DNA of 64,000 nt, taken from Alistipes sp. Lineage in GTDB: Bacteria > Bacteroidota > Bacteroidia > Bacteroidales > Rikenellaceae. Shown here in pieces: positions 6,840 through 51,347 of this stretch. Under the pieces are notes generated by a model, which was not told the origin of the DNA, ran no database searches, and saw only the letters and a program-made list of their open reading frames with translations. A program made the position numbers and the translations under genes. The stretch's first letter is position 1. Each line of letters opens with the position of its first letter. Location: positions 57,639 through 121,638 of the forward strand of contig JAFTVX010000011.1 in the NCBI GenBank assembly GCA_017465575.1, read 5' to 3'.

Positions 6840-6965
6840 GGGTGATTAGGCGCAATCAAAAAGTGAATTTAGGGAAATTAGGGAATTTAGAGAATTTAAG
6901 GATAGCGCTACCGACATTTATCCCTAACCTCCCTACATTCCTTAAACTCATTAAAATCCTTAATA
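6840..6965. repeat. Low-complexity TTAGGGAATT / CCCTAA tract
   Basis: Degenerate 8-10 base words of the type AATTTAGGGA run in one direction and then as CCTCCCTA in the other, so the block is itself roughly palindromic. Similar blocks occur near 1970, 2195, 13340, 16560, 36260 and 43050, always between genes. Confidence 0.6.
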
Positions 6966-6992
6966 AAACACCTTCCAGTCAGCACTCAGCAG

Positions 6993-7118
6993 ATTTCTTG
7001 TCAGAAGGGGCATAATTTGGTGCCGATAAAGAAATTGCCCTGGATGGGACATACTCGAGGTATTTCCCATTCAGGGCAATGATTGAGGCGTCGAAGGATG
7101 CCCCTTATCACAAGAAAT
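6993..7118. repeat. Palindromic 3'-end element, member 1
   Basis: 126 bases framed by ATTTCTTGT and ACAAGAAAT. The outer stem continues into GGGGCAT/ATGCCCC and the core is a long hairpin (ATTGCCCTG ... CAGGGCAAT with TGGGA/TCCCA). A conserved mismatch sits after TTCTTGT. It lies in tandem with member 2, downstream of pckA, and is nearly the reverse complement of member 4 at 36925-37050. Confidence 0.85.
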
Positions 7119-7120
7119 TA

Positions 7121-7246
7121 AATTTGTTGTCAGAGTGGCGCTAATGTGTCGCTGACACGAAAAATGGCGGATGGGACATACTGAGCGTATTTCCCATTCG
7201 CCATTTTGACTGAAGCGGCGCAGTAGCACCGCTATCACAACAAATT
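7121..7246. repeat. Palindromic 3'-end element, member 2
   Basis: 126 bases framed by AATTTGTTGT and ACAACAAATT. It folds into an outer stem, a side arm (GCGGTGC/GCGCCGC), a second side arm (GTGTC/GACAC) and a central hairpin (AAAATGGCG ... CGCCATTTT). Its right end contains two of the three bases of the pckA stop codon, so the element begins exactly where the gene ends. Confidence 0.85.
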
Positions 7247-35330: not shown

Positions 35331-35980
35331 TGGATACAATGAATATTTCTCAAGAGATACTTCAGGCGTTCTCTACTGGTGAGGTTGCCGTAGCGCCTAT
35401 CACCATCTTTGCTATCATCATCGGCGCCATCTTCGTCAACAATGTGGTGCTCTCGCAGTTCCTCGGCATCTGCCCCTTCCTCGGCGTATCGTCGAAGGTG
35501 AATACCGCGATGGGTATGGGTGCTGCCGTGACCTTCGTAATGGCACTATCTGCCGTTGTTACCTGGTGTCTACAGGAGTTTATCCTCGCCCCCTTCGGCA
35601 TCGAGTATATGCAGACCATCGTCTTTATACTCGTCATCGCCGCCTTGGTGCAGATGGTTGAGATTGTATTGCGCAAGGTATCGCCCGCACTCTATCGTGC
35701 CTTGGGTATCTTCCTGCCACTTATCACAACCAACTGTGCCGTACTGGGTGTCGCTATCCTTATGGTGCAGAAGGAGTTCTCGTTGGTTACGGGCGTTATC
35801 TACTCGGCTGCTACAGCTCTCGGCTTCGCCCTCGCATTGGTGCTCTTCGCAGGTATCCGCGAGCGTTTAGAGATGGAGGATACACCCGAGGGTATGCGTG
35901 GTGTGCCTATCGCATTGGTGACAGCAGGACTCTTAGCAATGGCATTTATGGGGTTTGCTAATGTAGTTCCCCTACCCTAA
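35330..35980 (+). CDS. rnfA: Rnf complex subunit A
   Basis: Integral membrane partner of RnfE, 216 residues with six helices. The VNNVVLSQFLGICPFLGVS segment (about 35-53) carries the conserved cysteine, and TTNCAVLGV (about 135-143) carries the second. It is the last gene of the rseC-rnfBCDGEA operon. Its stop codon forms the first bases of a palindromic element (35979-36107), which may end or stabilise the transcript. Confidence 0.96.
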   Translation: MDTMNISQEILQAFSTGEVAVAPITIFAIIIGAIFVNNVVLSQFLGICPFLGVSSKVNTAMGMGAAVTFVMALSAVVTWCLQEFILAPFGIEYMQTIVFILVIAALVQMVEIVLRKVSPALYRALGIFLPLITTNCAVLGVAILMVQKEFSLVTGVIYSAATALGFALALVLFAGIRERLEMEDTPEGMRGVPIALVTAGLLAMAFMGFANVVPLP

Positions 35981-36107
35981 TTTCTTGTGAAAAGGGGTCA
36001 TTCTCGACCCATCCCCAAAAGTTGAGTGCCTCGGGCTGTACCTTTGTACTATCCCGAGGCACTCACTTTTGCGATGAGCCAAGCCTAACCCCTTTTGACA
36101 AGAAATT
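35979..36107. repeat. Palindromic 3'-end element, member 3
   Basis: Ends AATTTCTTGT and ACAAGAAATT, continuing as GAAAAGGGG/CCCCTTTTG. A side hairpin GGGTC-attct-cGACCC and a core stem GTGCCTCGGG/CCCGAGGCAC around a TGTAC...GTAC loop follow. Its first two bases are the last two of the rnfA stop codon. Confidence 0.85.
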
Positions 36108-36290
36108 TGGTAGTGCTAACTGGTTGGGTGGTGTAGCCACGGACAATGAGTTAAAATGTGTTACGATGAGTTACAATGAGTTAATATGCTTTTTCCAATG
36201 AAGAAATATTTTAACCCATTTTAACACATAGTAACTCATTTTAACCCACAAATATTTTGCTCTCCCTAATTTCCCTAAATTCACTATTCA
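36108..36290. repeat. Tail repeat, copy A
   Basis: Starting with GGTAGTGCTAACTGG, the tail runs through GTGTAGCCACGGACAATGAG (from 36131), a GTTAAAATG/CATTTTAAC inverted pair and a CTCCCTAATTTCCC block. It is nearly identical to 37051-37235 past rplS, so element plus tail is duplicated on both sides of rplS. Confidence 0.75.
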
Positions 36291-36337
36291 CCTGCGCCCT
36301 CTTTTCCTCTCATTATCAAACGATTTTTGCAAAACTC

Positions 36338-36368
36338 TTGCACAGTTAAAAATAAATTCCTACATTTG
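36338..36368 (+). promoter_or_regulatory. Promoter of rplS
   Basis: TTG, a 20-base gap, then TACATTTG. The leader to the ATG is about 120 bases. Confidence 0.65.
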
Positions 36369-36372
36369 CAGC

Positions 36373-36480
36373 CCGTATCAACCTCTTATACTGGGCGAAG
36401 ACTACGAAAAAGGATTATCGGCGAGGGTGCCGTTATGGTAAGTCGACGCAGCGATAATGTTGAGCGATTAACTTTTTAAC
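36373..36480 (+). ncRNA. Putative L19 leader
   Basis: The leader before rplS can form ATTATCG/CGATAAT (ends near 36415 and 36460) around a small GGC/GCC hairpin. Ribosomal protein leaders for L19 are known in Flavobacteria and Firmicutes, so an autoregulatory structure is likely, but I cannot confirm a match to those models. Confidence 0.35.
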
Positions 36481-36493
36481 TTTTGTTGCAACA

Positions 36494-36871
36494 ATGAACA
36501 AAGATGCATTGATCAGACTCGTAAACGAGCAGATGTGGGAGAAGGGCGAGCAGGATGTGCCCAAGTTTGGTGCTGGTGATACTATCACCGTAACCTATCG
36601 TATTGTCGAGGGTAACAAGGAGCGCTTGCAGAGCTTCCGTGGTGTAGTTATCCAGATTAAGGGTTCGGGCCGTACCAAGATGTTCACCATCCGTAAGGTA
36701 TCGAATGGTGTAGGTGTAGAGCGTATCTTCCCTCTTTACTCACCCCACATCGACAAGATCGAGGTAAACAAGTATGGTGTTGTGCGCCGTGCACGCATCT
36801 ACTATTTGCGTGACCTCACAGGTAAGAAGGCACGCATCAAGGAGCGTCGTATCGTTAAGAAGGAGGAGTAA
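36494..36871 (+). CDS. rplS: 50S ribosomal protein L19
   Basis: bL19 at the subunit interface, 125 residues. [22 protein letters not shown] (start of the barrel), [11 protein letters not shown] and the C-terminal KKARIKERR are typical. It is monocistronic, with a promoter at 36338, a structured leader and a terminator at 36892-36923. The flanks contain a duplicated repeat unit. Confidence 0.98.
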
Positions 36872-36891
36872 TCCTCAGTTCCTTGAAGGAG

Positions 36892-36923
36892 AAAGGGCTA
36901 TTGCGGTTTGCGATAGCCTTTCT
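36892..36923 (+). terminator. Terminator of rplS
   Basis: AAAGG-CTATTGC / GCGATAGCCTTT hairpin with a short T-rich end (TCTTATTT), 20 bases past the stop. Confidence 0.75.
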
Positions 36924-36924
36924 T

Positions 36925-37050
36925 ATTTCTTGTGATAAGGGGCATCCTTCGACGCCTCAATCATTGCCCTGAATGGGAAATACCTCAAGTATATCCCATC
37001 CAGGGCAATTTCTTTATCGGCGCCAAATTATGCCCCTTCTGACAAGAAAT
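36925..37050. repeat. Palindromic 3'-end element, member 4
   Basis: Almost the reverse complement of member 1 (6993-7118), with ends ATTTCTTGT/ACAAGAAAT and core ATTGCCCTG...CAGGGCAAT. It lies directly behind the rplS terminator. Relative to its gene its orientation is the same as in the other members. Confidence 0.85.
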
Positions 37051-37242
37051 TGGGTAGTGCTGATTGGAAGGTAGTGTAGCCACGGACAATGAGTTAAAAT
37101 GTGTTACGATAAGTTACGATGAGTTAATATGCTTTTTCCAATGAAGAAATATTTTAACCCATTTTAACACATAGTAACTCATTTTAACCCACAAAATATT
37201 GTGCTCTCTCTAAACCCTAATTCCCTACAAATTGCGCTATGG
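37051..37242. repeat. Tail repeat, copy B
   Basis: Near copy of 36108-36290: GGTAGTGCTGATTGG, then GTGTAGCCACGGACAATGAG (from 37074), the GTTAAAATG/CATTTTAAC inverted pair and a CCCTAATTCCC block. Confidence 0.75.
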
Positions 37243-37329
37243 ATTCGAGCGGCGAAGCCGTAGAGCCGATACCTTATAAAAAAAAGCGCAGGCTGAAAGC
37301 CGAGCAATAAATCACTATAATATCGGCTC
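37243..37329. repeat. Structured repeat near tRNA-Val, copy A
   Basis: A CGGC-gaa-GCCG hairpin is followed by GAGCCGATA (37263-37271) pairing with TATCGGCTC (37321-37329), which encloses AGGCT-gaa-AGCC. Copy B at 37381-37487 keeps the outer stem while the inner stem reads GACC-gaa-GGTC. Confidence 0.65.
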
Positions 37330-37380
37330 AACCCCTATTAAATAAAAACAAAAGCGCAGAATGCGCTTACCTTTTTTGGG

Positions 37381-37487
37381 ATTCGAACGGCTAACCGCAT
37401 TGACAATGCGGTTAAAGCCGTAGAGCCGATACCGCTAAAAATAGCGCAGACCGAAGGTCGAGCAATAAACCACTATAATATCGGCTC
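37381..37487. repeat. Structured repeat near tRNA-Val, copy B
   Basis: Same layout as copy A with an added perfect hairpin TAACCGCATT-gac-AATGCGGTTA (37391-37414). On the minus strand this resembles a tRNA anticodon arm (GTC) followed by TTCGAATCCC, so it may derive from a tRNA-Asp. It is not a complete tRNA: no acceptor or D-arm pairs. Confidence 0.6.
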
Positions 37488-43047: not shown

Positions 43048-43200
43048 GGAGTTTAGGGAGAGCGCAGTCAATAGTGAATTTAGGGAGATTAGGGAATTTA
43101 GGGAAATTAGTGAAGAGCGCTATCGACATTTATCCCTAACCTCCCTACACTCATTAAACTCATTAAATTCATTAAAAAAACAGTTTCCAGTCAGCACTAC
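43048..43200. repeat. Low-complexity TTTAGGGA tract
   Basis: Degenerate TTTAGGGAGATTAGGGAA words turn into their complements CCTCCCTACACTCATTAAAC, then CAGTCAGCACTACCC, the conserved outer flank of the palindromic elements. Confidence 0.6.
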
Positions 43201-43202
43201 CC

Positions 43203-43330
43203 AATTTCTTGTCAAAAGGGGCATAATTTGGCGCCGATAAAGAAATTGCCCTGGATGGGACATACTCGAGGTATTTCCCATTCAGGGCAATGATTGAGGC
43301 GTCGAAGGATGCCCCTTTTCACAAGAAATT
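43203..43330. repeat. Palindromic 3'-end element, member 5
   Basis: Near copy of member 1 with ends AATTTCTTGT/ACAAGAAATT, the outer stem CAAAAGGGG/CCCCTTTTC and the ATTGCCCTG/CAGGGCAAT core. Its right end runs into the tamL stop codon. Confidence 0.85.
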
Positions 43331-50872: not shown

Positions 50873-50898
50873 TATTTACTAAAAAATAGTAATGGGAA

Positions 50899-51160
50899 GT
50901 TAGGGAGAGAGTACAGAGAGAGTACAGAGAGAGTACAGAGAGAGAACAGAGAGAGAACAGAGAGAGGACAGAGAGAGAACAGAGAGAGAACAGGGAGAGA
51001 ACAGAGACAATGGCAGAGACAATGGCAAAGACAATGGCAAAGACAACGCGGCTAACGCAACCAGCCCTCTCTGAACTCTCTCTGACTTCTCTCTGACTTC
51101 TCTCTGAAATCTCTCTGACTTCTCTCTGAAATCTCTCTGACTTCTCTCTGACTTCTCCTC
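50899..51160. repeat. Pair of inverted 11-bp tandem arrays
   Basis: About nine units of GAGAGAGNACA run from 50907 to about 51005, then three to four GAGACAATGGCA variants. From about 51066 the complementary pattern CTCTCTGACTT/CTCTCTGAAAT is repeated seven times. The arrays face each other, so a long slipped hairpin is possible. They lie between rpoC and the BACON operon and encode nothing credible. Confidence 0.85.
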
Positions 51161-51171
51161 TCGCACTACCC

Positions 51172-51215
51172 AATTTCTTGTCAGAGTGGTGCTAATGTGG
51201 CGCTAACAAGAAATT
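51172..51215. repeat. Palindromic 3'-end element, short member 6
   Basis: A 44-base version that keeps only the ends AATTTCTTGT/ACAAGAAATT and a small GTGGTGC/GCGCTA-type middle. The core hairpin is missing. It abuts member 7. Confidence 0.75.
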
Positions 51216-51216
51216 A

Positions 51217-51347
51217 AATTTGTTGTCAAAAGTCGTGAGATGTGGTCTATCGCAAAAGAATCCCCCAAGGGATAGTACATTGAAGTACAGCCCTTGGGGG
51301 ATTACTTTCTGGGATAGGCCGCAGATTGCGGCTTTTCACAACAAATT
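51217..51347. repeat. Palindromic 3'-end element, member 7
   Basis: Ends AATTTGTTGT/ACAACAAATT, continuing as CAAAAG/CTTTTC. A side arm GCCGCA-atc-TGCGGC and a core AATCCCCCAAGGG/CCCTTGGGGGATT with GTAC...GTAC in the loop follow. The right end includes two bases of the rpoC stop codon. Confidence 0.85.

Follow-up and report, generated by a model that had tools for sequence, protein, structure and literature searches.

A short palindromic element recurs at the 3' ends of genes in an Alistipes genome, and our analysis supports a high-copy, gene-3'-anchored family whose mobility is probable. We consider it somewhat probable that the element is a non-autonomous mobile palindrome, recognised by a putative enzyme via the hairpin of its antisense strand and placed mostly at stop codons in one orientation. 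An earlier note on the window, by which we mean the whole stretch of 64,000 nucleotides that was analysed, had claimed seven copies, and all seven were present:

7121..7246, minus strand: element sharing two bases with the pckA stop codon, TAA at 7247-7245.
6992..7119, minus strand: second copy, in tandem with the pckA element and with a degraded far end (AAATC).
35979..36107, plus strand: element at the rnfA stop codon; pattern match, gene name by NCBIfam.
36924..37051, plus strand: element directly beyond the rplS terminator-like hairpin; covariance model.
43203..43330, minus strand: element at the tamL stop codon; pattern match, gene name by NCBIfam.
51217..51347, minus strand: element at the rpoC stop codon; covariance model, gene name by NCBIfam.
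51172..51215, minus strand: 44 bp left of a second copy that followed the rpoC element; both ends kept, middle deleted.

Five of the seven coordinate pairs given earlier were kept, whereas two shifted by one base at each bound, the model bounds 6992-7119 and 36924-37051 replacing 6993-7118 and 36925-37050. The outermost pair is degraded in both of these copies. The names pckA, rnfA, tamL and rpoC were confirmed by NCBIfam. As had been claimed, copies lie at the stop codons of these four genes, each sharing exactly two bases with the stop, and a terminator-like hairpin directly precedes the copy said to lie past the rplS terminator. The end sequence AATTTSTTGT occurs 12 times in the window, versus 0.24 expected in shuffles. 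The element ends in AATTT....AAATT with paired arms, that is, terminal inverted repeats on a short non-coding sequence, as in a MITE. Most places that the pattern and the model identified measure 126-131 bp. Conservation of the flank on the far side is only loose: with up to three mismatches allowed, ACAASAAATTNNGTAGTGCT matches 32 places in the genome. Far flanks often hold GGTAGTG or GGTCGTG. Comparison of the window with Rfam at the gathering threshold returned four tRNAs only, and no family matching the element.

The earlier note had proposed a search of the complete genome, and further copies do exist. The host draft genome (G000; 1.95 Mb, 47 contigs, 94% complete) contains 69 copies of the exact pattern AATTTSTTGT-N80..110-ACAASAAATT and no copy of the reversed pattern, which served as a control. 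A covariance model built from 19 copies gave 150 rows in this genome, representing at least 144 distinct places, a lower bound in that 150 of 652 first-look candidates were scored. The exact pattern was found in 12 of the 150 genomes of a family sample, all from the host's genus, and was absent from the other 21 genera in that sample. When 121 genomes of the genus were surveyed with 28 candidates scored per genome, the model matched 76 of them at E 1e-5, many with one or a few weak matches only. The sister genomes G130 and G211 hold 101 and 112 distinct places, respectively.

Position was scored on both sides of 302 copies in stretches retrieved from G000, G130 and G211. A gene of at least 150 codons ended near the left end in 208 of the 302 copies and near the right end in 5, bearing out the claim that orientation relative to the upstream gene is fixed. 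Using ORFs of at least 80 codons, we found that the left junction fell exactly one base after the start of a stop codon in 170/302 copies, and the right junction in 2/302. TAA accounted for 168 of the 170 left-junction stops, and the stop at this junction consists of a T followed by the element's first AA. Among first copies, the stop was at offset -1 in 175 of 238 from the three genomes (72/102, 54/76 and 49/60). TAA ended 159 of 163 genes with an element versus 377 of 638 ORFs without one, and a G preceded the stop T at 107 of 178 element sites versus 138 of 377 element-free TAA ORFs; both control sets include spurious ORFs. Five genes that have a full element in G000 but not in G130 (C3:13265, C3:24182, C27:224529, C45:1923 and C27:127020) were inspected by eye. 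All five stop at the same codon in the two genomes, and in two of them G130 has TAG where G000 has TAA, as would be expected if the element supplies the AA of the stop.

In another 16 of the 238 first copies from the three genomes, the stop was at +9, a TGA inside the element. The proteins of these host genes (e.g. at G000 C1:8297 and C27:93334) enter the element, end at the TGA of AATTTCTTGTGA and gain a short tail.

The cores had been described earlier as long hairpins, sometimes with two side arms, and covariation among many copies had been named as the check. The long hairpin stood, whereas side arms were not seen: the computed folds formed one interrupted rod, and in seven folds examined the interruptions near the ends were mostly symmetric (1x1, 2x2 and 3x3). 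Covariation was strong, both in the G000 copies and in G130 copies outside the model. In 116 distinct copies from G000, 94.5% of cells paired and 893 cells had changed on both sides, versus 275 in shuffles (0/500 shuffles); a partner-sliding control lowered pairing to 39-44%. In 74 distinct copies from G130, which were not in the model, pairing was 98.2%, with 574 two-sided cells versus 164 (0/500 shuffles), both alignments having been fitted to the structure and thus leaning towards it. At least 15 four-base versions of the outer stems occur, all of them fully matched, and the terminal AATTT/AAATT is constant. Across the rod, shared information is high between paired columns and mostly low between neighbouring modules, with some inner ones linked (up to 0.68).

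Two smaller features of the rod were seen. The apical loop (4-6 bases) was hypervariable between otherwise near-identical copies, for example in the 7175-7195 region of the window, and the TAC/GTA that closes the stem below it was constant across such copies. In G000 C3:12367 (L006:1501-1626), the halves of the internal loop look by eye to be swapped between the arms relative to copies of the same outer type, a pattern that resembles inversion of an inner piece.

The conserved fold is predicted to lie in the strand antisense to the gene. Among non-Watson-Crick oppositions in the sense (top) strand, A-C occupied 166 cells and G-U 18, many of the 166 being inherited together within module types rather than arising as independent events. 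These A-C cells are G-U pairs in the antisense strand. With RNA parameters, 238 of 243 copies (138/143 in G000, 100/100 in G130) were more stable antisense, the mean folding energy being -71.3 kcal/mol antisense versus -55.9 kcal/mol sense, with a median difference of -15.2. DNA parameters gave the same direction in 237/243 copies, with a median difference of -6.8. Similarly, 81 of 82 copies from G211 and all eight rnfA-site copies from eight further genomes folded better antisense. G-U pairs numbered 696/7246 antisense versus 93/6563 sense, the 2x2 loops of the antisense strand were GA/GA, AA/GG or GG/AA in 92 of 109 cases, and the RNAalifold consensus energy was -66.3 antisense versus -33.0 sense. 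After the wobble count and two-strand folding, we dropped the sense-strand RNA fold as a candidate for the conserved structure. Covariance-model scores were rejected as a strand test: models of either strand gave near-equal bits, as expected, and the strand claim therefore rests on wobble and mismatch chemistry. We also rejected an antisense preference as a general property of local repeats, as 87 of 200 flanks beyond the linker, which are rich in tandem-repeat hairpins, and 42 of 97 coding controls were better folded antisense.

Many elements are followed, after a loosely conserved linker of ~25 bases, by a second long hairpin (window 36141-36252, 37084-37195, 50883-51165, 6850-6945 and 43062-43198). 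Its arms are 9- to 11-base tandem repeats of TTTAGGGAG-like, CAGAGA-like, GTTAAAATGA-like or GACCATTAA-like types, and these second hairpins show no antisense preference. The 126 bases behind the rnfA and rplS elements (36127-36252 and 37070-37195) are 98% identical and 943 apart; judged by this identity, the pair is a recent local copy. A 153-base direct repeat (1958-2110 and 2185-2337; 90% identical, 227 apart) holds GTTAAAATGA-type repeats without a stop-codon element.

We then compared element content at orthologous gene ends. At 70 such ends occupied in both G000 and G130, median element identity was 0.743, versus 0.734 for non-orthologous pairs and 0.91 for the gene flanks; 13 of the 70 formed a conserved minority with an element identity of at least 0.9. 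The 143 full copies of G000 comprised 9 second tandem copies, 41 without an ortholog in the G130 stretches, 12 with alignments that were too short, 11 without a full G130 element and the 70 with one. The G130 stretches had been chosen for holding copies, so that 70/81 is no occupancy rate and 70/134 is a lower bound. Whole arrays differed at 57 of 70 sites between G000 and G130, 30 of 50 between G211 and G000, and 26 of 35 between G211 and G130. The rnfA proteins of the three genomes are 99-100% identical, yet the elements at their stop codons differ. By eye, 30 rnfA loci showed a full element at the stop in 11/30 genomes and a degraded element in two (G205 and G206), and element-free relatives (e.g. 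G198, G162, G095, G165 and G227) had an ordinary terminator-like hairpin there.

The rnfA site also bears on how copies arrive. G211 has one element at this stop; in G130 an element of the same type stands second, behind a different element that directly follows the stop T. AATTT is present at both sides and can be read as element end or target duplication, and precise loss in G211 is a possible alternative, the comparison of G211 with G130 being one without an outgroup. Between the stop and a full element, 20 sites carried either part of a resident left end or some extra bases, several of these pieces ending at TAATTTNTTG or TAATT. At G000 C5:9962, by contrast, the terminal bases of a former right end persist and the remainder has changed, a pattern that resembles recombinational replacement within the ends rather than insertion. 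Insertion and recombination may both act.

Among second tandem copies, one subtype per genome tends to prevail (TCTTTGCCGTG... in G000 and AATTTGTCGTG... in G130), and a damaged left end is often combined with an intact right end.

The alternative that survives best is that resident gene-end terminators swap content through ectopic gene conversion or through template switching, with insertion a rare or ancient event. Such swapping would account for positions that are kept while content changes, for the mixing of modules (unpaired-module columns share little information, paired columns do), for the old right end retained at C5:9962 and for the scars, which can be read as microhomology switches. 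It is harder to reconcile with the clean empty rnfA sites bearing ordinary terminators in relatives, with the tandem copy gained ahead of the resident one at rnfA and with outer stems that change on both arms together, and the antisense-strand signature would be superfluous for a sense terminator. We regard this explanation as unlikely.

A quite improbable alternative is that each copy, or a master copy, is expressed as a rod-like antisense RNA acting in cis or in trans. The RNA-like signature of the antisense strand, with its G-U pairs and tandem G-A loops, is consistent with such a transcript, but no consistent antisense promoter was seen: the promoter motif matched 29 times in 232 far flanks versus 71 times in the sense direction, the motif scanned being a Bacteroidetes one that may not hold for the host. 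The next gene was convergent in 94 cases and co-directional in 94, indicating that no neighbour systematically drives antisense reading. The Rfam result for the window likewise argues against a transcript of this kind.

The view of the earlier note, in which sense-strand hairpins act as terminators or mRNA 3' stabilisers, appears more doubtful still. The fixed place and orientation at gene ends favour it, as do runs of at least five T within 8 bases after the inner stem, which were found in 64 of 119 copies in the sense direction versus 30 of 119 antisense. Decayed copies examined by eye (L025 at pckA, G130 at the ortholog of C45:1923, and G000 C44:44117) had kept the left arm, the inner hairpin and the long T-run and had lost the right arm; L025, like L026 and L052, is a Rikenellaceae/Alistipes MAG from an animal gut, with pckA 94-97% identical to that of the window. 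However, a simple terminator scan of 35800-37400, which spans the rnfA and rplS elements, flagged the rplS hairpin and neither element. The sense fold is worse by ~15 kcal/mol (median). This weakens the case for stabilisation of mRNA 3' ends, as does the presence in the sense strand of C-A mismatches that correspond to G-U pairs in the antisense strand. Termination is a possible function, though apparently a secondary one.

We also searched for machinery that might mobilise the element. A Y1 transposase (PF01797), which moves REPs in REP/RAYT systems, was rejected as a candidate with matches in 0/63 genus genomes at E 0.001, G000 and G130 included; 5 of 14 named genomes used as positive controls matched. 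An integron integrase (TIGR02249) over the cut-off was found in 0/63 genomes, with below-cut-off matches only, as in all 14 controls. The reverse transcriptase family PF00078 had no match in G000, and G130 and G211 lay outside the 41 of 121 genomes with a match; G211, at 86% complete, is perhaps no deciding case, and G000 and G130 are drafts. A REP-like element mobilised by RAYT, or a retroelement that depends on a resident reverse transcriptase, would share the strand-polar hairpin, fixed orientation and tandem copies seen here, but with Y1 matches in none of the 63 genomes and the reverse transcriptase family absent from the results for the draft genomes G000 (94% complete) and G130, this explanation is highly improbable and current activity of either system is largely refuted. 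No autonomous version was seen in 1.16 Mb of fetched stretches, where 206 of 235 left ends paired with a right end 115-140 bp away and the remaining 29 did not resemble a gene-carrying form.

A literature search of titles and abstract openings returned no paper describing this stop-codon element family, and on the features tested the element belongs neither to ERIC or YPAL, which it recalls in size and shape, nor to attC, which it recalls in its antisense-strand folding. YPAL (RU-2) of Yersinia is described as a 168 bp palindrome that duplicates 3-26 bp of its target and has dyads as target sites (PMC2229807). YPAL resembles our element as a small non-coding palindrome with many intergenic copies, co-read with the upstream gene, and with empty and filled sites between close species (PMC2229807). 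It differs in its unrelated host; here the junction lies mostly after the stop T, content is swapped and the fold is antisense. ERIC is about 127 bp and, according to a review table, has 5'TA3' termini with target duplication (PMC2229807, PMC2267715). It shares with our element its length, its imperfect palindrome with one long stem-loop, an intergenic location and an orientation that can matter, whereas our element ends in AATTT/AAATT and is located in stop codons. Efa-1 of Enterococcus faecalis is represented by a 163-position model with a pair of adjacent stem-loops (PMC2267715). It is likewise an intergenic structured repeat of similar size, with two adjacent stem-loops in place of the single rod found here. 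Efa-1-like repeats are linked to stop codons and terminators.

Integron attC sites form a bottom-strand hairpin of low sequence conservation, the strand being chosen by structure (PMC2727003). In our element, too, folding prefers the bottom (antisense) strand, in the 238/243 copies given above. attC sites are located at the 3' ends of cassette genes. Differences are that the integron integrase search gave nothing over the cut-off and that our copies lie behind core genes genome-wide; an extrahelical-base pattern was not seen in the seven folds examined. REPs are summarised as 20-40 bp long with a GTAG or CGTC tag, and are palindromic intergenic repeats with strand polarity, as is our element (PMC3733652). 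The earlier assignment to a REP/MITE-like family is upheld as regards a high-copy, probably mobile palindrome but not in the REP sense, given the length of 126-131 bp here and the absence of Y1 matches. HMP2_4205, reported as a palindromic candidate structured RNA of 132 bp from human microbiomes, mostly Bacteroidetes, is alike in length, phylum, palindromic form and predicted terminators (PMC8040213). It could be a related family. We read our element as one of the small palindromic mobile elements, unusual in both its target and its strand.

For the favoured non-autonomous mobile palindrome, the following route may be envisaged. A reaction that recognises the structure of a single strand would place new copies behind the T of a stop codon or in a copy already present, within its first ~16 bases. 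That older copy would then become the second of a tandem or be lost. The inner hairpin and T-run would supply a terminator to the host gene, and decayed copies may keep this part because it terminates that gene. Tentatively, we suggest that the element could represent a new class, a strand-polar mobile hairpin whose folded single strand is recognised by a putative non-Y1, non-IntI enzyme, which targets stop codons and resident left ends and supplies both stop and terminator, its sequences turning over so rapidly that sister species share the sites and no longer the sequences.

Most palindromic repeats of bacteria have been classed as REPs, MITEs or terminators, with the sense strand taken as the one to read. 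Here, the chemistry of compensatory change points to the strand opposite to the gene as the one that is kept folded, and in sister species a gene end can keep the site of an element while the element itself is wholly replaced. The family offers a test bed for the movement of small hairpins, for stop codons as landing sites and for terminators recruited from mobile DNA, and the strand-resolved wobble test is applicable to any other family of palindromic repeats.
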